From Achromobacter insuavis (GTDB lineage: Bacteria; Pseudomonadota; Gammaproteobacteria; Burkholderiales; Burkholderiaceae_B), in contig NZ_CADIJR010000008.1 of assembly GCF_902859645.1 (NCBI RefSeq), forward strand, positions 1 to 64,000: DNA of 64,000 nucleotides, read 5' to 3'. Positions 35,599-48,310 of this stretch are shown one piece after another (the first letter of the stretch is position 1; each line of letters opens with the position of its first letter). Made by a program: the position numbers and the translations under genes. The notes beneath the pieces were generated by a model, which saw only the letters and a list, made by a program, of their open reading frames with translations, was not told the origin of the DNA and did no database searches.

Positions 35599-35922
35599 AT
35601 GAATAATCTAGTCAAAGCCGCGATGACCGCGGGTGCCGCGATGGTCCTGTCCCTGGGGGCGCTCTCTGTGCCCGGCGTCGCGCAGGCCGGCGTGGCCATC
35701 AGCATCGACGTGGCGCCGCCGCCTCCCCGCGTGGAAGTCGTGCCGCCGCCGCGCGTGGGCTATGTGTGGGCGCCGGGCCATTGGGAATGGGTCGGCGGGC
35801 GCCATGCCTGGATCGAGGGCGCCTGGTTGCCAGCGCGGCCGGGCTATGTGTATCACCGTCCCGAGTGGCGCCAGCGGCATGGGCATTGGGTGTATTACGA
35901 GGGGCGCTGGGGGCGCCATTGA
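35599..35922 (+). CDS. YXWGXW-repeat secreted protein
   Basis: The 107-residue product has a signal peptide (MNNLVKAAMTAGAAMVLSLGALSVPGVAQA). A Pro-rich linker and aromatic repeats follow: YVWAPGHWEWVGGRHAWIEGAWL, then YVYHRPEWRQRHGHWVYYEGRW. Proteins of this pattern are small periplasmic or outer-membrane lipoprotein-like factors of unknown function, often stress-induced. It has no operon partner. Confidence 0.85.
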   Translation: MNNLVKAAMTAGAAMVLSLGALSVPGVAQAGVAISIDVAPPPPRVEVVPPPRVGYVWAPGHWEWVGGRHAWIEGAWLPARPGYVYHRPEWRQRHGHWVYYEGRWGRH

Positions 35923-35985
35923 GATCGCGCCCGGCGTGAGTGGCGTAAGGGGCGGCCTTCCCGACGTGGGCGGCCCTCCCTCGCT

Positions 35986-36586
35986 TCAGTGCTTGAACAG
36001 GCGTTCGTGCATCCAGCCGTCATTGATCAGCACCAGCCCCGCGTGGCCGTGGATGTCGCCCTTTGCTTCTTCCGCCATGCTCGTGTATGCGGCTTGCACT
36101 TTGCGTTCTTGATCCAGTCGGCCGTGTCTTTCGCCTTGTAGTGGAAGTTCACCTGCGACACCTTCAAGCCCATCATGTTGCTGGGCTCGGTGAAGTTGTC
36201 CACATCGACCACGGTGTACGAGCCCGTGCAGAAGGCAAACTTGTGCCGCTCTCCAAGGTAGTTCCTGCCCAATTCGGTGACTTGGTATTCGGTGCCGGGC
36301 ACGGCGCCGCCGAACAACGCCTTGAGTTCCGTATCGTGCTTGCCGAGCAGGCCGGCATCGGCAAGCGCGTCTGCGCGGGCTTTGCAGCCCTGGCCTAGCA
36401 TGTCCTGCCTTTCCAGCTTGAGGGCAGTTCCCGCGCGGGAAGGTTGGCGCAGATGCCGTTCTGCGCATCCAGGTAAGCCTGGATGGCTTTGCTAAAGTTG
36501 GTCTTGTTGGAGCCCTTGGCGCTGCCGCACGCCGCCAGGGCGAGGGCGATGCTGCTCACGGCAACGAGTTTGAGGGCGGTCTGCAA
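35986..36586 (-). pseudogene. lipoprotein gene broken by two single-base deletions
   Basis: Frame 1 from ATG 36586 gives a lipoprotein signal (VAVSSIALALAAC) and NKTNFSKAIQAYLDAQNGICANLPARELP. Near 36418 the sense continues one base out of register as LKLERQDMLGQGCKARADALADAGLL ... VNFHYKAKDTADWIKNA. Near 36106 it shifts again into QAAYTSMAEEAKGDIHGHAGLVLINDGWMHERLFKH and the stop at 35986-35988. Each shift is repaired by adding one base (in ctgccctc and in the caaag run). The intact ancestor would be about 198 residues. It is either a recent pseudogene or carries two sequencing errors. Confidence 0.75.
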
Positions 36587-37142
36587 GGCGGGATCCTCCT
36601 TGTAGGCAATGCGCTGGAGCGCAAGTGTGTTGAACCCCTGGCTGAGCCAGACGATTGTGTCGATGATCGCACGTCGGATCAGGTGAATTTCTGATTCGCT
36701 CCGTGGATCGCGGGATCAGGAAGGGCGGCAGTCAATGGCCAGCGTCATGATCCGGGCCGGCGCGCTCTTCGAAATGCCGCGCGGCCGGGATCAGCCCGGC
36801 CAGCAGGGACTACACGCGTTGCAATTGCTGCGAGGAAGGCCGGCTTGGGTATGCGGATGCGAACCATCCTGACGCGGCATGCCGACGTTTTCGCGGCTGC
36901 GATAGCCGAAGGAAACTTTCCTAATCAGCTCGGCCATCGATGAGGTCATGGCTAAGACAGGCGCTTGGTGGTATAGGCTATTGGAGGCGGCTCATCCAAT
37001 AATGCTCTTGAGGCGCTGCATTTACGAACGGTGGTTGATCGTACGATCAATCCTATTTGGTCAAATGGGGGCTATTCAATTTTGGATTTTTCGGCGCGTA
37101 AGACGCCGAAGTGTTACATGTCCATTTTCGTATTATCCGTAT
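36587..37142. other. 556-bp gap at the left edge of the defence island
   Basis: No supported gene lies here. From about 36950 the G+C drops and the sequence changes character, marking the probable left border of the imported segment. A 16-bp perfect palindrome at 37035-37050 lies 92 bp before vsr. No integrase, transposase or obvious attachment repeat was seen. Confidence 0.5.
37035..37050. promoter_or_regulatory. 16-bp perfect palindrome upstream of vsr
   Basis: TTGATCGTACGATCAA reads the same on both strands. Its position 92 bp before the vsr start suggests an operator, for example for a control protein of the island, but no such protein is identified. Confidence 0.5.
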
Positions 37143-37577
37143 ATGACGCTTTCGACCACTCTTCAGCGCAGTCGGATGATGGCGGGCATCCGTGGGAAGA
37201 ACACCCGGCCCGAACTCCAACTCCGGCATGCGCTCTTTGCTGCTGGCTTTAGATATCGCTTGCACCGGCGCGATTTGCCGGGATCACCTGACATGGTTTT
37301 CTCGAGATATCGCGCGGCGCTTTTTGTGCACGGATGTTTCTGGCATCGACATGAAGGCTGCCGTTACACCACCACACCAAGGTCAAACGCCGAATTCTGG
37401 CGCCTCAAATTCGAAAGTAATGTCAGCCGGGACATTCGGGATATAGCCCTGCTCCGACAGGGCGGCTGGCGTGTTGCAATAGTCTGGGAATGCACTTTGA
37501 AGCGAGCGCCGAAAAATGTGGTTGTGAACGTGCTGGAATGGCTGCAAAGCGACCAAAATTTCCTTGTCGTCGAGTGA
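37143..37577 (+). CDS. vsr: very short patch repair endonuclease Vsr
   Basis: The 144-residue protein has the Vsr pattern: RSRMMAGIRGKNTRPELQLRHALFAAGFRYRLH, LPGSPDMVFSRYRAALFVHGCFWHRHEGC with the catalytic Asp and the zinc-type H/C residues, and a late WECTLK. Vsr nicks T:G mismatches left when 5-methylcytosine deaminates in the partner methylase's target. It converges with the methylase gene and their stop codons abut (37575-37580). ATG 37143 starts the family sequence; an upstream frame to 36948 has no family content. Confidence 0.92.
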   Translation: MTLSTTLQRSRMMAGIRGKNTRPELQLRHALFAAGFRYRLHRRDLPGSPDMVFSRYRAALFVHGCFWHRHEGCRYTTTPRSNAEFWRLKFESNVSRDIRDIALLRQGGWRVAIVWECTLKRAPKNVVVNVLEWLQSDQNFLVVE

Positions 37578-39209
37578 TCAGTTCACCTGGGCGAGATCCA
37601 GCTCAGCCTGTCGCTTGGCCGGAATGGGGCCGTCAGGAATCGATTTGCGCTGTAAGGGTGAATTCTTAGCCTTTCTTCTCGAGTTGCGATTCAATTCGGC
37701 CAAGACACCTCTGACGATCTTCGCCAGCTTGTGGGCAAGCAGAGGCGGTACTGCATTGCCGACCTGCGTATACTGTTCTGTGCGAGTACCCGCAAAGAAG
37801 TAGTTGTCCGGGAACGTTTGCAGTCTTGCCGCCTCCCTGACTGTAAGGCTTCGGCACTGGGTCGGATCGTAATGAATGTAATAGTGGCCATCCTTCGCGA
37901 TGTGTGACACGATTGTGGTGGCGGGCTCTCTTGCGCATTGCACCCGGAACCTGTCCTTGAAGGGTATAGCCTCGGTATTGGCCCTTTCTTTCGTTATGTT
38001 GCTGTGTTTCGGAAGCAGTTTCGGTGGAAATATGTCGAGGCGAGGGGAGTATCTCAGGGTTTGGGCGAAGCATGCGGCGAACAGGTATCGAGCGAGATCA
38101 GAATCCATGTGCGCGCGAGCCTCGTGCTGGCAGAAGCCATTCAGACTTCGATCGTGCACCCAACGTTGGAATTCGGTTTGCCCGGCAAACTTGGGTTTTC
38201 GGCCGGGCTTCTGTGCGAATGGCTTTCCAACGCTGTTCCATGTGGCTGCTCGGGCTGAGATCCGCATAAGTTCGGTCATAGCCCGTTCGTTTGGAGTTCC
38301 CCAGCCTTCGACGTAGGACGGGCCTGCTAGGACTGCCTTGCGCCACGCGTCGGTGGAGTCTCCTCTGGACAGCTTGCTGCGGATCTTTGGGAGATCGTCG
38401 ATGGCCTGCTTGACCGACACGGGTTTGCTGACCGGAAGCAGATCATGGCGGAACGCGCCGGCGTCCTTTCGGATGCCCAGCAAGATCACGCGGTGTCGGC
38501 TTTGCGGTATGCCGTACCTCTCGGCCTGTATCACGAAGTCGCCGGGTTCGAGCGTGTCGCTGTTGCCCTTCTTGACGAAAGAACGGATTTCGTACTCAAC
38601 CCCAGGCGAAGGGGTACAAAGGTCGGAGAGGATTCGCTCGAACATTGGGCTTCCTGAATGCTGCGACGAGAGCAGCCCCTTGACGTTCTCCATGACGAAG
38701 ATCGTAGGCAGGTGCACCCTGATGATGCGTAGGTATTCCTTGTATAGGAAATGCTTGACATCATCCTTGAAGGTCTTGTCGTTGGCTCGTCTTGCTCTGC
38801 CCGCCAGTGAATAAGCCTGACACGGCGGTCCTCCTATGAGAACCCACGTATCTTTGCCTCCCAGGGCGGCCCGGATTTCCGCGTCGATGTTTGCCTCGTC
38901 GGCCTTGCCCAGTTCCAGGCAGCGAGCTTCTTTTTCTGCGTTGGCGAAGGCTTCGGCGACGGCGGGAATTGTTCTGAACGTTGGCTCGTCGATCTCATTG
39001 CGGATGTACGAATAGTAGTGCTGGATGTGCTTCGTTCCTCGCAGGTGACGAAACACGGCACGCAGCGTTAGAGTCCTGTGAGCGATAGGGTCTTTCTCGA
39101 TCGACAGGCCGATCTCGAAGACGGGCTCACGCTTGTAGTCGCGGAGCGAGGAGAACCCCTCTCCGAGTCCTCCGGGGCCTGCGAAGAGGTCAATTACTGG
39201 AATTGGCAT
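37578..39209 (-). CDS. DNA (cytosine-5-)-methyltransferase
   Basis: The 543-residue protein shows the C5-methylase motifs in order: I VIDLFAGPGGLGEGF, IV GGPPCQAYSLAGR with the catalytic Cys, VI FVMENVKGLL, VIII IPQSRHRVILLGIR, a variable target-recognition region (about 270-410), IX SLTVREAARLQTFPD and X QVGNAVPPLLAHKLAKIV. An insert between motifs I and IV (about 60-120) is longer than usual. It should protect host DNA from the island's nuclease; the target sequence cannot be read. It lies 79 bp downstream of the AbiEi-like gene on the same strand. Confidence 0.93.
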   Translation of the reverse strand: MPIPVIDLFAGPGGLGEGFSSLRDYKREPVFEIGLSIEKDPIAHRTLTLRAVFRHLRGTKHIQHYYSYIRNEIDEPTFRTIPAVAEAFANAEKEARCLELGKADEANIDAEIRAALGGKDTWVLIGGPPCQAYSLAGRARRANDKTFKDDVKHFLYKEYLRIIRVHLPTIFVMENVKGLLSSQHSGSPMFERILSDLCTPSPGVEYEIRSFVKKGNSDTLEPGDFVIQAERYGIPQSRHRVILLGIRKDAGAFRHDLLPVSKPVSVKQAIDDLPKIRSKLSRGDSTDAWRKAVLAGPSYVEGWGTPNERAMTELMRISARAATWNSVGKPFAQKPGRKPKFAGQTEFQRWVHDRSLNGFCQHEARAHMDSDLARYLFAACFAQTLRYSPRLDIFPPKLLPKHSNITKERANTEAIPFKDRFRVQCAREPATTIVSHIAKDGHYYIHYDPTQCRSLTVREAARLQTFPDNYFFAGTRTEQYTQVGNAVPPLLAHKLAKIVRGVLAELNRNSRRKAKNSPLQRKSIPDGPIPAKRQAELDLAQVN

Positions 39210-39288
39210 TGAGGTCCTTAAAATTCTTGTGAGTGCGTGATCGCCGCGGACGGACCGCGTCGACGTCGTGATTTACGTAGTAGGGCAG

Positions 39289-39897
39289 TCATGCGAAGAC
39301 GCTTTCCATGTAGGGGCGCATTACATTGGATACCCGGTCGATGTCCGCGTAGTGCGACAGCTCATCCAGGGTGACCTTGCGTTGCTCCCAGCCGTCGCGT
39401 AGCGCTTCAAGTGCGACATCAATGCCGATCTTGTTGCGGTACTTGAAGCAGTCTGCAATGGTCTTGGCTGCATTGAAAACTGGTACGTCCAGTCCATCGA
39501 TGCGCATGGACTGAATGCCCTCGGTCAAAGCCTGGCCTGACATACGGACGGGGCGCAGCGCAGGGCGGTCGAAGCGAGGGGCGGGCGAGTTCTGTGGAAT
39601 CGCCAGCCAGATCTGATGCGGTGCCTGTGTACCCAGCTCATGTATGCGCAACGCTGAAAGCAGGCAGATGACCCCTCTCGGAACCCTCAGCGCGACCTCT
39701 GCCAGCGAAATGTGCTCGCTCAACGGTTGATCAGGACGGGCGTACACGCCGCGGCCAACGCGTCTAAGCCGACCATCCCTGACCAGGCGGCTCAGAATGA
39801 TAGTTGGCAGGGAGAGGGCGGCGACATCCCGGGCTCGCAGCAGGGATACGCTGCTGGCCAAGGCCAGCACCTGTTCCTCTTGTGTCTGGCTGGACAT
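39289..39897 (-). CDS. AbiEi-family winged-helix regulator without an AbiEii toxin
   Basis: The 202-residue product has an N-terminal winged helix (LLRARDVAALSLPTIILSRLVRDGRLRRVGRGVYARP, about 18-55) and the AbiEi C-terminal region (ICLLSALRIHELGTQAPHQIWLAIP ... VPVFNAAKTIADCFKYRNKIGIDVALEALRDGW). In AbiE type IV systems the AbiEi antitoxin represses its promoter and offsets an AbiEii nucleotidyltransferase. No such toxin lies next to it: the downstream gene is the methylase. It may serve as the transcriptional regulator of this island. Confidence 0.85.
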   Translation of the reverse strand: MSSQTQEEQVLALASSVSLLRARDVAALSLPTIILSRLVRDGRLRRVGRGVYARPDQPLSEHISLAEVALRVPRGVICLLSALRIHELGTQAPHQIWLAIPQNSPAPRFDRPALRPVRMSGQALTEGIQSMRIDGLDVPVFNAAKTIADCFKYRNKIGIDVALEALRDGWEQRKVTLDELSHYADIDRVSNVMRPYMESVFA

Positions 39898-40493
39898 TCA
39901 ATTTAAGGTCTGTGATGTTGCATTATTTATTCATTATTTCACAATCGAATAAAGATCGCAGCATCAGCGAGACGGTCCCTGAGTCTAGCCTTGTTCCTAA
40001 CCATAGCTGCAGATCGCAGAGACCCCAACATGACTGAGTACACATCGGCGGATCTTTAACGAGCATGGGTCAAATACTGAGGCGTTTTGCGAGAGGTTGT
40101 GCGTGCCGCCAAGGGGTAAGTGCAGAAAGCTCTGAAGGCTATGGCAGGGTGCTGGGCTTCGTTACAGTGCACTGTTGTCGGTTGAATCCGCTTGCCATGT
40201 AGGCAGGCGCGAGACCTTCAGATTACGCGCCGTTAAAAGATCCAAGGCGAGATAATGAAATCGTACAGAGTGCCGAATTCACACCATTCCATCGCGTTAC
40301 GTTTTGAGATAATCTTGTAAGCTAGGACGGAAGGGGCTCCTTCCGTCAAAGAGACGAGTCGGCGCCATGCGCGCGGCACAGTCCGTACGCAGTCGGGCCT
40401 CTTTCGCGGCCGGTCAGGCGAATGCGGACGTACCATGGAGGAGATTTCGATGTTCAGGTGTCTTTGGTGCATGGGCGCCGCTGAGGAGTACCT
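39898..40493. promoter_or_regulatory. 596-bp divergent control region of the defence island
   Basis: No gene is supported here. Near the AbiEi start a direct repeat ATTATTT (39922-39928 and 39933-39939) lies in AT-rich DNA, a plausible autorepression site. Toward the right is a 9-bp hairpin, GACGGAAGG (40326-40334) and CCTTCCGTC (40339-40347), in the leader of the ATPase operon. The long leader (over 100 nt after the hairpin) is unusual for this genome. Confidence 0.45.
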
Positions 40494-41951
40494 GTGATCG
40501 CGCGTTCTGATCTTGAAACCCTCGAGATCGTCCCTGATCCGGTGTCTTTAATCGAATCCATGCGCGCGGTCGGATACACGACCGAGTCTGCGATCGCCGA
40601 CTTAGTTGACAATAGCATCTCGGCGGAGGCGGACAACGTCGAGATAGAGTATGACGCGACAAGGGAGCCTTTTGTCGCGATCTTGGATAATGGTCGTGGC
40701 ATGAGCGCTTCCGAGCTCACGCAGGCGATGCGCCACGGCAGCAGAAATCCGGCAGATCGCCGTCATCCGAAAGATTTGGGGAGGTTCGGTCTCGGCCTCA
40801 AGACAGCTTCCTTGTCACAATGCCGAGTGCTCACCGTGATCAGCAAACAAGGGGGAAATCTCTCCGCGCGGCGCTGGGACCTTGACGTCGTTCAAGATTC
40901 GGGGCGTTGGCTAGTGGTGGTTCCGCCATTGGAGGCCCTTCAGAAGTTGCCGATGTTCAGCCGGCTCGAAGATGTGGACAGCGGCACCTTGGTCGTCTGG
41001 CAGGACTTTGATCGACTGACGGCGGGTTCGACTAATCTGGCGCGTGAATTTACGACGAAGTTCTCAGGGCTGCGGGAGCACCTTGCCCTAGTGTTCCACC
41101 GCTTCACCCATAAGGAAGATGGAGCGTCGCCGATCTCGATCAAGCTGAATGGCTTAGCGCTGCCCTTCCGTGACCCGTTCATTCGCGGAAACAGCTACCG
41201 ACAGCCGCTCGAAGGGCAGACCATTCGCCACGAGTGTGGGCAAGTGTGCGTGACGCCGCATGTTCTGCCACCGGTCTCGCATCTGTTGCAGGACGACATT
41301 GAGACTGCCGGGGGCTTGGAGGGCCTTCGAGGAACGCAAGGCTTCTATGTCTATCGTAACCGTCGTTTGGTGATCTGGGGGACGTGGTTCCGCCTTGTTC
41401 CGAAGCAGGAATTCTTCAAGCTGACGCGTGTTCAGGTCGACATTCCGAACACATTCGACGATCTTTGGTCGCTTGACATCAAGAAATCCGCTGCGCAGCC
41501 GCCCGAGTTCATCCGGAACCGTCTGACTGCGCTTATTCCTCACTTTGCCGAGGCCAGCAAGAGGACTATCTCCTATCCTGGACGCCGCACCGGCACTGCC
41601 ACCTACGTCTCCGTTTGGAACCGCTCCGAGCCGGGCCATGGAAGGTTTCGGTATGACGTGAATCGCGATCATCCGGCGCTCGTTGCACTTGCCAGCGAAA
41701 TGGATGATGGTCAGCGACGTCAGCTGGACGTCCTTCTCGATCTGATCTCGTCTGCGCTTCCGCTTGATGGCATCTACGCCGACATGTGCTCGGATAGCCG
41801 CAGTCTAGGTGACGACTCTGCGCTCGAGTCACTGGTGAAACTTGCGTCGTGCCTTCAAGAAGCAACCGGGATCGCGCTTTCGGCGATCCTCGATACCGAC
41901 CCGTTCATCCGTCACCCTAGTCTTCGCGACAGGATCATTCAGAGGGTTTAG
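40494..41951 (+). CDS. GHKL (MORC/MutL-like) ATPase of a defence system
   Basis: The 485-residue protein carries the GHKL ATP-binding motifs near its start: N box AIADLVDNSISAEA, G1 ILDNGRGMS, G2 LGRFGLGLKTASLSQC. A transducer-like middle follows (YVYRNRRLVIWGTWFRL; LTRVQVDIPNTFDDLW with the conserved K in DIKKSA). This matches the MORC-like ATPases found in bacterial restriction-modification islands. GTG 40494 has GAGGAG six bases upstream. Two bases separate it from the Z1 gene, so it is probably one unit with it. Confidence 0.88.
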   Translation: MIARSDLETLEIVPDPVSLIESMRAVGYTTESAIADLVDNSISAEADNVEIEYDATREPFVAILDNGRGMSASELTQAMRHGSRNPADRRHPKDLGRFGLGLKTASLSQCRVLTVISKQGGNLSARRWDLDVVQDSGRWLVVVPPLEALQKLPMFSRLEDVDSGTLVVWQDFDRLTAGSTNLAREFTTKFSGLREHLALVFHRFTHKEDGASPISIKLNGLALPFRDPFIRGNSYRQPLEGQTIRHECGQVCVTPHVLPPVSHLLQDDIETAGGLEGLRGTQGFYVYRNRRLVIWGTWFRLVPKQEFFKLTRVQVDIPNTFDDLWSLDIKKSAAQPPEFIRNRLTALIPHFAEASKRTISYPGRRTGTATYVSVWNRSEPGHGRFRYDVNRDHPALVALASEMDDGQRRQLDVLLDLISSALPLDGIYADMCSDSRSLGDDSALESLVKLASCLQEATGIALSAILDTDPFIRHPSLRDRIIQRV

Positions 41952-41953
41952 CC

Positions 41954-44698
41954 GTGAAAATCGACCCGTACGTCACCGCAGTTGGCCTTATCGGCGACAA
42001 CGATCTGACAGACGAATTGCTAGCCAAGGTGCTTGCCATGCTGCGGGTTTGGTCGCCTGACATCGACGATGCGACGATTCAAGGAGTGAAGAGGCAGCTC
42101 GAGTCATCCATGGGCGTGAGTCATTCCGTGGGTCAAGGGCTGCACGGCGGGGACATCGCTCCATGGGTGCTGGATGTGAAGGCCTCCATCCCTTGGCACT
42201 ACTGGGACGCATACGTCAAACAGTTGCGCACCAAGAACTTCGGAAATGAGGTCATTCGGGTTCTTGATCAGGACACGGAGAACATCCTTACCGAGTGCGG
42301 CAGTCCCCTGGAGCCCGGTCCCTGGATTTCCAAGGGGCTCGTTATGGGTGATGTCCAGTCCGGCAAGACCGCAAGCTATTGCGGGCTCATCAGTAAAGCC
42401 GGTGATGCTGGGTATAAGATCATCGTGCTTCTGACCGGAATGATAGAGGATCTGCGTGCGCAGTCTCAGGAGCGACTGGACGAGGGGTTCGTCGGCCGCG
42501 ACAGCCGCAAGCTTTTGACCAAGGATCGCTCGGATACGCCGATCGGCGCCGGCCGGTTCTCGACGAAGAGGCCTAATGTTCTCACCTCGATCGACTCTGA
42601 TTTTCTGAAGGCCAATCAAGAGGCTCTTGGCGGCATCCCGCTGGGGAACATCAGCGAGCCCGTGCTTCTTGTCATGAAGAAGAACGTGTCTCCGCTTTCG
42701 AATCTTATCGAGTTTCTGGACTCCCAGATGAAGAAGGGCGTCAAGCAGTTGGACCTACCGCTCCTCGTGGTCGACGACGAAGCGGACAACGCTTCGGTCA
42801 ATGGTCGCAAGGATGAGGAGCCCGCAGCGATCAACAGGCTAATCCGCGAGCTACTTGAGCGCTTCTCGAGGGCATCCTACGTCGCGTATACGGCAACTCC
42901 TTTCGCTAACGTACTGATCAATCCAGATATCGACGAGGATCTGTTTCCGGCAAACTTCGTCTACTCGCTCGAGACGCCGAGCAGCTATCTGGGCGTGATG
43001 AGCTACTTTGGAGACGACGCGTCGCATGGAGATGCCGTCCGCAACATCCAGGACGCAGAGAAGCTGCTGCCGTATACGCACAAGAAGGATCATCAGGTAG
43101 CCGGCCTGCCGGGGTCGCTGAAGGATGCTCTCGGGGTTTTCCTTTTGTCCTGCGCTGTGCGGGATCATCGGAAGGAGCCATTGCGGCATCGGTCGATGCT
43201 GGTCAATGCCTCAAGGTTTACTGATGTACAGGCACGAATAGCTACGCTTCTCAATAACGAGCTGTACGTACTTTCCGAAGATATTAAGCAGTACCTGTCG
43301 AGCGATGCTGTTTGGTCAAATCATGCAAGCCTTGTTCGCCTGCAAGAGCTGTGGCTCGAACACTACTCGGATGTCGGCCTGGAATGGAATGAGCTACGGC
43401 GCACGCTGTATGAAGCCATCTCCTCGGTGAAGGTCATAACAGTCAATCAGAAGTCTGATGAATCGGACCGGCTAAATTACTCTCTCTACGAAAAATCTCG
43501 CTACGGAAGACGCGTCATCGCGGTCGGGGGTTTGACATTGTCTCGAGGGCTCACGCTTGAGGGACTGTGCGTCAGCTACTTCTATCGAAACTCCAAAGCT
43601 TACGACACGCTGCTGCAGATGGGGCGGTGGTTCGGCTATCGACCGGGTTACGATGATCTTTGTCGCATCTGGGTGGATCCGAACGCGAAGGGCTGGTACT
43701 CACACCTTGCCGAGGTTGTCACCGAGCTGCGGCGGGACATCACTCGAATGCATGCCCAGCGACAACCTCCGCGTCGATTCGGCATGCGCATTCGCTCGCA
43801 CCCCGATGCGCTGATCGTGACTGCTCTCAACAAGATGCGGAACGCCAACGAAGTCCGGGTGGCCGTGTCGTACAGCAGTTTCGGCGCAGAGACCCCTCTG
43901 CTGCCGGAGAGCGCGGATCGCAACGACATGAATCTGGCTCGAGTCAAAGATTTCGTTGAGCGCTTGTCAACTGCGAAGCTCAAGGGAAATCGTCTGTTCT
44001 GGGGCGAGATCAAAAAAGCTCAAATTTCGCGGTTCCTGAATGGACTGGACATCCTGGAAATCAATACGCCGTTCATGAGAGATGCGACGAGCAAATCTCG
44101 CCCGCTCATCGACTTCATCTCGGGAAATTCGGTGAAGGAGCTCGAAATGTGGGACGTGTGCATGCCTCAAGGCACCGGCGCGACCCTGGAAGACTTCGTT
44201 GTCACCGCAGATGGAACAACTGGTGTCAAGGTTCGGCCGCGAATGCGTCAATTCGAGCGAACCAGAAAGAACGTCGGATTCCTTCGCCTGAACAAGCAGC
44301 GAGTCGGCGACGTGTCCGACGAACTGGTGGGGTTTACGTCCGATATGAAACGGCAGGCGGAAAAGGATTGGGAGGGGGAACGCATGCGAGACAGGAAGCT
44401 TGGTGCAGCTGTGCCAGGCTACTTCTACCGGCGATACCGCACACGCCCCCTCCTGACTATTCATGTGATCGAACCGGGAGATCCCAAGCCCGGCAAGGAT
44501 GATGACTCGGGCAAGCCGAAGAAGGACAAGCTCGAGGAGATGTTCTCTGCTGCCGAGATCGACCCGCACTCGCTTGTGGCGATTTCCATTTCGTTTCCCA
44601 ACTTCGACGGGGTCGAGAAGCCCGTCTACTACACCTTGAACAAGGTTGCGCTGCGCGAGGCCGGACTGCTGGAGGCAGATGAGAACGATGACGACTAG
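41954..44698 (+). CDS. Z1-domain helicase-like ATPase
   Basis: The 914-residue protein has a Walker A-like VMGDVQSGKTASYCGLI (about 130-147), a Walker B LLVVDDEADNAS (about 270), SYVAYTATPFANVLINPD (motif III-like), then the Z1 core VIAVGGLTLSRGLTLEG and LLQMGRWFGYRPGYDDLCRIWV. These are SF2-like motifs, so it probably translocates on or remodels DNA for the linked nuclease. Start is GTG 41954, three bases after the ATPase stop. It overlaps the DUF4420 gene start. Confidence 0.9.
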   Translation: MKIDPYVTAVGLIGDNDLTDELLAKVLAMLRVWSPDIDDATIQGVKRQLESSMGVSHSVGQGLHGGDIAPWVLDVKASIPWHYWDAYVKQLRTKNFGNEVIRVLDQDTENILTECGSPLEPGPWISKGLVMGDVQSGKTASYCGLISKAGDAGYKIIVLLTGMIEDLRAQSQERLDEGFVGRDSRKLLTKDRSDTPIGAGRFSTKRPNVLTSIDSDFLKANQEALGGIPLGNISEPVLLVMKKNVSPLSNLIEFLDSQMKKGVKQLDLPLLVVDDEADNASVNGRKDEEPAAINRLIRELLERFSRASYVAYTATPFANVLINPDIDEDLFPANFVYSLETPSSYLGVMSYFGDDASHGDAVRNIQDAEKLLPYTHKKDHQVAGLPGSLKDALGVFLLSCAVRDHRKEPLRHRSMLVNASRFTDVQARIATLLNNELYVLSEDIKQYLSSDAVWSNHASLVRLQELWLEHYSDVGLEWNELRRTLYEAISSVKVITVNQKSDESDRLNYSLYEKSRYGRRVIAVGGLTLSRGLTLEGLCVSYFYRNSKAYDTLLQMGRWFGYRPGYDDLCRIWVDPNAKGWYSHLAEVVTELRRDITRMHAQRQPPRRFGMRIRSHPDALIVTALNKMRNANEVRVAVSYSSFGAETPLLPESADRNDMNLARVKDFVERLSTAKLKGNRLFWGEIKKAQISRFLNGLDILEINTPFMRDATSKSRPLIDFISGNSVKELEMWDVCMPQGTGATLEDFVVTADGTTGVKVRPRMRQFERTRKNVGFLRLNKQRVGDVSDELVGFTSDMKRQAEKDWEGERMRDRKLGAAVPGYFYRRYRTRPLLTIHVIEPGDPKPGKDDDSGKPKKDKLEEMFSAAEIDPHSLVAISISFPNFDGVEKPVYYTLNKVALREAGLLEADENDDD

Positions 44699-45662
44699 GA
44701 TTGAGACCATCTGGGAGGAAGAGGCTCGAAAGGCCGAGACTCTTCCTATTGAAGCTGACGCGTTTCGACTCATTAGGCTAGACGAGAAGCAGGCTCATGA
44801 TATCTATGCAGGACTCGACGACGGGTTGCATGCAATTCTGGGCCTCGGAGTGTCGAGTCGACCGCCTGCAATCGTTCTGCAGTCGGATGCATTCGACTAC
44901 TTTCGTCGCCAACGAGCGGATGGAGCGTGGTTGCTAGTTCTCCGCTTGAAGCGCAGAGGGTTGGAGTCCGTCTTCGGTCGGCTGTGCCAAGATCTTGTGG
45001 ACTCTGCGTCGTTGGTGAAGGCTGAAGACGCTGTACTTGCACTCTTCGTGGAGCGGCTTCGCTTGTGGGAACGACTCTTCTCCGGATCGGACGACGGGCT
45101 ACTTCCGAAGCACAAGATTCGAGGCCTCGTGGGAGAGCTTCTTGTCCTGGAGCGGTTGCTCGTCGCGCAGACTGCCTCCATCGGAGAGCTCGTTGATTCA
45201 TGGGTAGGGCCGCTCAGTGCGGATCAGGACTTCTGTCTCGCCGACAGGTCGATCGAGGTCAAGGCGATTAACCCGGGAGCTAGGTCAGTAGGCATTTCAT
45301 CTCTTAGTCAGTTGGCTGCACCTGTGCCGTTGACACTTACCCTGATTACTCTTGCCACATCAGTCGCCAATTTCACAGAGGCGGTTTGCCTAAACTCCCT
45401 CGTGGATCGACTAGAAGCCCGTATCGCCGCGGAACCGGCGGCGCTGTCGGCGTTTAAAGAACGGTTGCTTGCCGCTGGGTACGTTGATCAACGGCGCTAT
45501 GGCGAGGATTGGTTCGTTGCGGTGCGAGAAGATTCGTTTGCAGTCACAGCCGGATTTCCCAGGCTGGTGCCCTCGGACGTCGTATCGGCTATCACCGGCG
45601 CGACCTACGAACTTGACATCGCCGCGCTCAGTGGATATCGAGTGGAGTTCCCGGCAGCATGA
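44679..45662 (+). CDS. DUF4420 PD-(D/E)XK-type nuclease
   Basis: The roughly 327-residue product has a conserved acidic pattern: GLVGELLVLERL (Glu), then GPLSADQDFCLADRSIEVKAI, where D-x(n)-E-V-K forms the PD-(D/E)XK catalytic signature. This would be the DNA-cutting subunit of the island. Two ATGs are possible, 44679 with GGAGG only three bases ahead and 44688; both lie inside the end of the Z1 gene, so translation is coupled. Its stop overlaps the AIPR start as ATGA. Confidence 0.85.
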   Translation: MRTMTTRIETIWEEEARKAETLPIEADAFRLIRLDEKQAHDIYAGLDDGLHAILGLGVSSRPPAIVLQSDAFDYFRRQRADGAWLLVLRLKRRGLESVFGRLCQDLVDSASLVKAEDAVLALFVERLRLWERLFSGSDDGLLPKHKIRGLVGELLVLERLLVAQTASIGELVDSWVGPLSADQDFCLADRSIEVKAINPGARSVGISSLSQLAAPVPLTLTLITLATSVANFTEAVCLNSLVDRLEARIAAEPAALSAFKERLLAAGYVDQRRYGEDWFVAVREDSFAVTAGFPRLVPSDVVSAITGATYELDIAALSGYRVEFPAA

Positions 45663-47788
45663 CTGATCTGGAGTTCTACTTGGAATTGAACCAGATGGTG
45701 GCAAGACGAGCCGCCTCGGATCATTTGGTGGACGTACTCGCGTTCGTACATGAGATTGCCGATAGACTGGGCGATGATCCAGCGTTTGGAGAGTTCGTTT
45801 CTGCTGAGTTCTCTGGGTCGGCGACTCGGGGACGGCAGCAGTTCCGTATCCATGGCTTCACCGCCTTCGACGAGGCGGACGGGAGCGTGGGCCTAGTCGT
45901 TGGGCGATGGTTTGACGACGAAGAGCCCGAAACGCTCACAACGGCGACCGTGAATCAGCTCTCTGCATATCTCCAGACGTTTGCTGAAGAGGCATTGAAC
46001 GAGTCGTTATGCGAAAGAATCGTCGAGTCAAACGGCGCATACGAAATCGCTCATCTGATGCAGAAGTCGAAGGCTCGCATTTCGAGAGTTCGTCTTCACG
46101 TTATCTCGAACCAACCCCTGAGCACGAAATTCAAGGAAAGAGTTCTTCAGCCTATCGGTGGCATTACGATAGAGCTGCATGTCTGGGATCTCTGTCGACT
46201 TCGCTCAGTATACGAATCCGATCGCGAGCGTGAAGTTGTGACGGTGAGCATTTCCGACTTCGGTGCGAGCGGCATTGAATGCATGCGAGCTTCTGGGTCC
46301 GAGAGTATTCAATCCTATCTGTGCATTGTTCCAGCGTCACTGCTCGCCGACATCTTTGAGCGTTACGGTAGTCGTGTACTTGAGGGGAATGTACGTTCGT
46401 TTCTGGGGATGAAGGGTGGAGTCAACAAGGGCATTCGGCGCACGATTCAGGACGCTCCGCATCTTTTCCTTGCATTCAACAACGGCATCGCCGCAACTGC
46501 GACCTCTGTGGAGGTGGGCGTCATCAATGGGAGATCGTTCATCTCGAGTCTCGTCGATCTGCAGATCGTCAATGGCGGGCAGACGACAGCCAGCATTCTC
46601 AATGCGCGGAAGAAGGACCGCCTGTCTCTGGAGGATGTGAACGTTGCTATGAAGCTGACCGTCGTGGAGGCGGCAGGTGCCGACGATCTCATTCCAAAAA
46701 TTGCGGAGTACGCGAACACGCAGAACAAGGTTGCCGTCGCAGACTTCTTTGCCAACCATCCATTGCACAGAAAGATTGAAGAAATCTCGCGAAGATTGGC
46801 CGTTCCCTCGAGCGAGGCAACACGTATTCGAAGCAAGTGGTTTTATGAGCGTGCGCGAGGGCAATATCAGAATGAGCGACTCTACCTCTCGGAGAAGAAG
46901 AAGCAGAACTTCGATCTCGAGTATCCGGCCAGACAGGTCATCAACAAGACCGACCTAGCGAAGTTCGACAGCGTTCTCAGTGAGAAGCCGCAGTGGGCCA
47001 GCCAGGGGGTTCAGAAGAACTTTGTCAAGTTTGCGTCCCACTTTGAACCGAAGACTTCTGAGAAAACCTCGGCCGAGTATTGGGCTGAAGTCAGTCCTCA
47101 GTATGGGGACGGCTATTACCAGCGTATCGTTGCCGTCGCTTTGTTGTGGAAGAAACTCGAGGCCATGGTCTCAGCTGCCCGAAACGACTGGTATCGGGGG
47201 GACTATCGCGCACAGATCGTCGCATACGGGCTTGCAATGTTGGTCCACGGAGCTCGCCGTTCGGGGCGAGAGCTGGATTGGGACGCACTCTGGAATGCAC
47301 AAGCGATCTCGTCGGAACTTGAGGAGGCAATGAAAGCGGCGGCGATCCTTGCTCAATCCGTGATTCTTACGCTGCCAGCGGGAGCCACCAATGCGGGTGA
47401 GTGGGCCAAGAAAGACACGTGCTGGGAGCACGCACGCGATGTAAGTCTGGAGCCGGCGGCTGATTCTACATGGCTTGTCTCGAGTGCCGAAGCTCGCTAT
47501 CAGCAAACTGAAGCTCGCAAGCAGGGAAAGCAAGACGACTTGATTGCCCTTCAGCGTCGAGTGTTTGCACTCTGCCAGTCGGGATACTGGGCTGATTTGT
47601 CCAGATGGTCCGAATTGCCTGAGATTGCATCCGAGGCGCAGAAAGCGCTGATTGTTCGGGCAAGTACGATCTCCGGCTTTATGAAGATCGGACTTGAAAG
47701 AGACTGGAGGCGTTTGTCAGAGTTGGCGAAATCGTGCGATGAAGCAGGTTTCAAGCCCGTGATGGAAGCCGTGAATAATCAGCCCTAG
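45659..47788 (+). CDS. AIPR-family abortive phage resistance protein
   Basis: The 709-residue protein fits the AIPR family: FGASGIECMRASGSESIQSYLCIVPASLLADIFERYGSRVLEGNVRSFLG, FLAFNNGIAATAT, LQIVNGGQTTASIL, KIAEYANTQNKVAVADFFANHP and FYERARGQYQNER. The GGQT and FNNG segments are the most conserved part of the family. Its biochemical role is unknown; it is regularly encoded beside Z1 and DUF4420 proteins. It is the last gene of the four-gene operon. Confidence 0.9.
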   Translation: MTDLEFYLELNQMVARRAASDHLVDVLAFVHEIADRLGDDPAFGEFVSAEFSGSATRGRQQFRIHGFTAFDEADGSVGLVVGRWFDDEEPETLTTATVNQLSAYLQTFAEEALNESLCERIVESNGAYEIAHLMQKSKARISRVRLHVISNQPLSTKFKERVLQPIGGITIELHVWDLCRLRSVYESDREREVVTVSISDFGASGIECMRASGSESIQSYLCIVPASLLADIFERYGSRVLEGNVRSFLGMKGGVNKGIRRTIQDAPHLFLAFNNGIAATATSVEVGVINGRSFISSLVDLQIVNGGQTTASILNARKKDRLSLEDVNVAMKLTVVEAAGADDLIPKIAEYANTQNKVAVADFFANHPLHRKIEEISRRLAVPSSEATRIRSKWFYERARGQYQNERLYLSEKKKQNFDLEYPARQVINKTDLAKFDSVLSEKPQWASQGVQKNFVKFASHFEPKTSEKTSAEYWAEVSPQYGDGYYQRIVAVALLWKKLEAMVSAARNDWYRGDYRAQIVAYGLAMLVHGARRSGRELDWDALWNAQAISSELEEAMKAAAILAQSVILTLPAGATNAGEWAKKDTCWEHARDVSLEPAADSTWLVSSAEARYQQTEARKQGKQDDLIALQRRVFALCQSGYWADLSRWSELPEIASEAQKALIVRASTISGFMKIGLERDWRRLSELAKSCDEAGFKPVMEAVNNQP

Positions 47789-48136
47789 CCCGTCAAGCTC
47801 AGCTTATCGGAACAGCCAATCGGCTGATAGTTGTTCCGTCGGAGCGTAACCGCTGATAGCCCCGCCGACGTCGCTCAGAAGAGTTTCTTGTTCGCCAAGC
47901 GGGATCGAAGGCGGCTGAGCACTCACTTTGTCGCAGTTAGCTTCATATGCTTTCCAAAAGAGGGTTTACCCTGTGGATTTCAGAGAGCATTTTGGGTACA
48001 CGCGTGGGAACCCAGAATCTCGGGTTTCGGTGTACCTCGGCGGGGATCTATGGGACTCGTTGGGAGGTTCTTTTAGCGCTAACTCGCTGACGTGAAAGCG
48101 AATTTGTTGGTTATGGGCCTTGTTGGGAAGGCCTAG
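47789..48136. other. 348-bp spacer between the defence island and tRNA-Leu
   Basis: No supported gene. Just after the AIPR stop a nested inverted repeat, CGGAAC (47808-47813) with GTTCCG (47833-47838) enclosing AGCC/GGCT, could end the transcript. The remaining sequence next to the tRNA 3' end is where a recombination scar would lie; I found no duplicate of the tRNA end on the far side of the island. Confidence 0.45.
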
Positions 48137-48221
48137 TGGTGCCCGGGGCCGGAATCGAACCGGCACGCCTTGCGGCGGGGGATTTTGAGTCCCCTGCGTC
48201 TACCAATTTCACCACCCGGGC
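48137..48221 (-). tRNA. tRNA-Leu (anticodon CAA)
   Basis: The minus strand folds as a complete 85-nt class II tRNA. The acceptor stem is GCCCGGG/CCCGGGC, the anticodon stem GGGGA/TCCCC with loop CTCAAAA (anticodon CAA, reading UUG), then a variable arm, the T loop GTTCGATTC and an encoded CCA end. Its 3' end points at the defence island. Confidence 0.95.
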
Positions 48222-48310
48222 AGGCTGGTCGCGGGGCCGTCCAGGCGACGGTCGCGGGTAAAGCGAAGACCGCGATTATATGCGGTCTGGGGAAAATTGT
48301 CAGGCAAGGG

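Follow-up and report, generated by a model that had tools for sequence, protein, structure and literature searches.

The window analyzed here, a stretch of 64,000 nucleotides of Achromobacter insuavis DNA, carries a seven-gene island that probably cuts foreign DNA while marking its own by means of a C5-cytosine methylase. Judging from the sequences, comparison with related loci further suggests that the methylase and Vsr genes constitute an interchangeable cassette moving separately from the cutting genes. The preliminary description of this locus had named GHKL ATPase, SF2/Z1, PD-(D/E)XK, AIPR, C5 methylase, and Vsr genes, and all six were confirmed by family matches (PF13589, PF10593, PF14390, PF10592, PF00145, and TIGR00632, respectively). 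Its reading as a MORC/Z1-type restriction-like system stands in that the genes match the predicted type, but the type itself has already been predicted by others; the novelty lies in the two linkage modules.

37143..37577, plus strand: Vsr, very-short-patch mismatch endonuclease (TIGR00632, 2.3e-40)
37578..39209, minus strand: C5-cytosine DNA methyltransferase, DrmMII-like (PF00145, 8.4e-44; TIGR00675, 3.1e-41; PADLOC DrmMII, 2.1e-88)
39289..39897, minus strand: AbiEi-like protein of an antitoxin/repressor family (PADLOC AbiEi, 1.4e-80; PF13338, 2.9e-11)
39898..40493, no strand: divergent AbiEi/MORC intergenic region, 596 bp, no Rfam family
40494..41951, plus strand: MORC-type GHKL + S5 ATPase, MzaB-like (PF13589, 2.7e-34; NF041932, 305 bits, cut-off 850)
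41954..44698, plus strand: SF2 protein, MzaC profile match (PF10593, 6.1e-73; NF041933, 439 bits, cut-off 1500)
44688..45662, plus strand: DUF4420, predicted PD-(D/E)XK nuclease, MzaD-like (PF14390, 1.6e-54)
45659..47788, plus strand: AIPR protein with AIPR_N, MzaE-like (PF10592, 1.2e-84; PF22879, 2e-25)

Core genes and the methylase cassette

The order of the core genes (MORC, SF2, DUF4420, and AIPR) is constant in the 83 loci that contain all six genes; the methylase and Vsr genes, located tail to tail in the window, occur in 12 arrangements. Distance correlations of the methylase and Vsr with the core are 0.28–0.33, vs. 0.52 between the methylase and Vsr, and clade swaps were rejected (p 2e-46 and 7e-10). 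Individual loci illustrate both directions of this separation. The AbiEi, methylase, and Vsr proteins of Ottowia are 82, 81, and 68% identical to those of the window and adjoin a core that is 32–45% identical, while the cores of loci L130 and L064 are 78% identical (DUF4420, 77%), vs. 26% for their methylases. L042 and L141 likewise pair similar cores with different methylases. A single cassette (methylase 97.5%, Vsr 96% identical) adjoins this core in one genome and a DISARM-type DrmB in another. Related repeats of ~140–160 bp flank the methylase-Vsr cassette in L171:9152-11770 and the whole system in L041:6903-17432, and are a possible route of exchange.

The view that the cassette is a mere passenger beside the core draws on these separate histories and on its adjoining other systems as well. 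It seems very improbable, as a C5 methylase is found near 73 of 74 well-flanked cores, in several phyla (by record title), which is too regular for a passenger. Vsr is also enriched near the core, which favors a different reading of its role in the system, as do the fusion of Vsr-type nuclease domains to defense helicases (PMC12458937) and the likening of the gene set to MutL-Vsr repair (Iyer, 2008); we consider that reading improbable. The Vsr reading frame of the window opens at 36948, the likely start being 37143, and its product matches PDB chain 1cw0, the E. coli Vsr (E 1.9e-28).

Motif residues are conserved over 88 loci. Methylase residues PCQ 129–131, ENV 174–176, Q236, R238, and R240 are kept in at least 95% of them, as are E164, D195, E204, and K206 of DUF4420 (numbering from 44646; the gene starts at 44679 or 44688). 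The SF2 protein contains QSGKT (135–139), DDEAD (274–278), and DTLLQMGRWFG (551–561), the pattern of the latter recurring in 85/88 loci. The pattern of a further motif, GFYVYRNRRLV at 283, recurs in 82/88. The top PDB matches of the MORC ATPase profile are MORC2, 3, and 4, with MutL behind them.

Several observations weigh against the proposed restriction function or the division into modules. Loci L090 and L093 lack DUF4420 (2/74 well-flanked loci), so these systems may do without the nuclease or use another in its place; no MORC was detected in L114 (1/74) and no Vsr in 12/74. The module split is imperfect: small positive partial correlations link MORC to the methylase (0.145, p 0.02) and to Vsr (0.135, p 0.04), and a similar one links DUF4420 to Vsr (0.116, p 0.024). 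The putative role of AbiEi is suggested by its position in two loci, the window and L079.

Specificity and mode of action

Region 251–400 of the methylase was taken as the target-recognition part. It is 78–83% identical between the window and L079 and 9–20% identical between L130 and L064, which suggests that specificity can change while the core stays unremade. A single target shared by all these methylases would yield the same pattern. The conventional alternative is matched recognition, in which AIPR or DUF4420 of the core reads a fixed sequence, e.g., CCWGG, that all partner methylases methylate, a cassette swap being neutral. We regard it as possible, yet distinctly less likely than recognition of foreign DNA by its lack of the methylase mark. 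In its favor, the site of CglI is read by the system's own nuclease subunit (PMC4267653), and the methylase is nearest to PADLOC DrmMII; according to a review, DISARM methylates CCWGG (PMC5957327). The same review states that DISARM also inhibited phages without the motif. Against it, the L130 and L064 target-recognition regions are hardly alignable under 78% identical cores, and the nuclease does not significantly track the methylase.

Disjoint close pairs (on average 22.6–34.5 pairs) were used to ask which core part follows the methylase. AIPR_N leans most with methylase divergence, which agrees with matched recognition, but not significantly (r 0.34–0.54, max-statistic p 0.07–0.27, failing correction), and the DUF4420 parts range from -0.02 to -0.48; hence, none of the core parts demonstrably tracks the methylase. 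Two candidates for the matching part were rejected. For the nuclease, the partial correlation is 0.075 (p 0.064), values over all pairs are small and mixed, and those over disjoint pairs negative. For the AIPR C-terminus, values over all 3,828 pairs are about zero or negative and those over disjoint pairs not significant; in the 141 pairs whose core identity reaches 0.55 or higher, windows from 572 on give 0.22 to 0.45, and the C-terminus is striking in single pairs.

Abortive infection, with an AIPR toxin freed when a phage upsets the methylase or core, would kill the infected cell and leave unmarked phage DNA uncut. AIPR is named after this process, and in PMC3506569 it is grouped with AbiU1, a HEPN toxin domain being predicted at its N-terminus. 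The island AIPR is also matched by PADLOC AbiU (1e-24). HEPN domains are all-helical, whereas the N-domain of the AIPR structure model (pLDDT 91) is predicted to contain a helix, three strands, helices, and two strands, as read from the DSSP string. Furthermore, DUF4420 accompanies AIPR in 72/74 well-flanked loci with its motif residues conserved, and we deem abortive infection unlikely compared with cutting of unmarked DNA. In structure comparison, the AIPR model also weakly matches ParB N-domains, McrC, and a restriction enzyme, and its NGGQTT resembles the DGQHR motif of DndB, the two not being linked by profiles.

AbiEi-like gene and island boundaries

The AbiEi-like gene lies 79 bp upstream of the methylase gene and is co-directional with it. 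The same arrangement, 82% identical, occurs in L079, which together with L105 provides the only AbiEi matches among the 111 relatives. The AbiEii toxin partner of an AbiE type IV toxin-antitoxin system is absent from the island; genome-wide, the sole AbiEii match lies 40 kb outside the window and scores weakly (25.1 bits against a cut-off of 22.5). In L105:4623-6105, a full AbiEi-AbiEii pair directly adjoins the same system. An imperfect 20-nt inverted repeat (arms 39913–39932 and 39947–39966) in the divergent intergenic region is a putative operator.

35941..48136, no strand: segment containing the island, without counterpart in G301 (flank comparison, GC drop)
48137..48221, minus strand: tRNA-Leu(caa), its 3' end forming the right edge of the island

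G301, the nearest relative searched, is 94–95% identical in the flanks, to 35940 and from 48137 on, and has 1,079 bp of different sequence at the same place vs. 12,196 bp in the window. GC content falls across the segment. Two weak short G301 matches at 36759–36916, left of Vsr, suggest a left edge at about 36917. The tRNA end is present in a single copy in the window, with no second att-like copy, and none of four direct-repeat families in 35900–48300 has a copy at both edges. A family search found no integrase among the seven island genes, the reading frames left of Vsr not being included; an Rfam scan of 35900–48300 yielded the tRNA and no other non-coding RNA. We read this segment as a mobile island of bacterial genes.

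Comparison with known systems

MZA, reportedly described by Gao in 2020, is said to consist of mzaABCDE. The island proteins match the MzaB, MzaC, MzaD, and MzaE profiles in the same order, far below the NCBIfam equivalog cut-offs (305/850, 439/1500, 129/420, and 297/1050 bits, respectively). MzaA (PDLC02203) has five matches in the genome (E <=0.001), none on the contig of the window. The island differs from MZA by the C5 methylase and Vsr adjoining the core.

Among the ATP-dependent CglI/NgoAVII restriction systems, to which BceSIV is called homologous (PMC4267653), the CglI-type nuclease combines PLD and B3 and reads the site, whereas the island has DUF4420, plus MORC and AIPR; none of its seven proteins matches PLD or B3 at E 0.1. 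The previously predicted system shares with the island a MORC ATPase, an SF2 protein with the DThhQXuRhFG motif, and a gene of the RE fold, and Dcm, Vsr, and AIPR are named in its neighborhoods. We see no essential difference from it; the sections of its description considered here include neither an orphan AbiEi nor cassette exchange. The putative defense system type II (Miller, 2022; PMC9523054) is described in the main text without naming Vsr. Finally, DISARM with DrmMII has a C5 methylase of the same family, and the C5 methylase of the family studied here adjoins DrmB in three loci (L171, L181, and L186), accompanied by DrmA in two of them.
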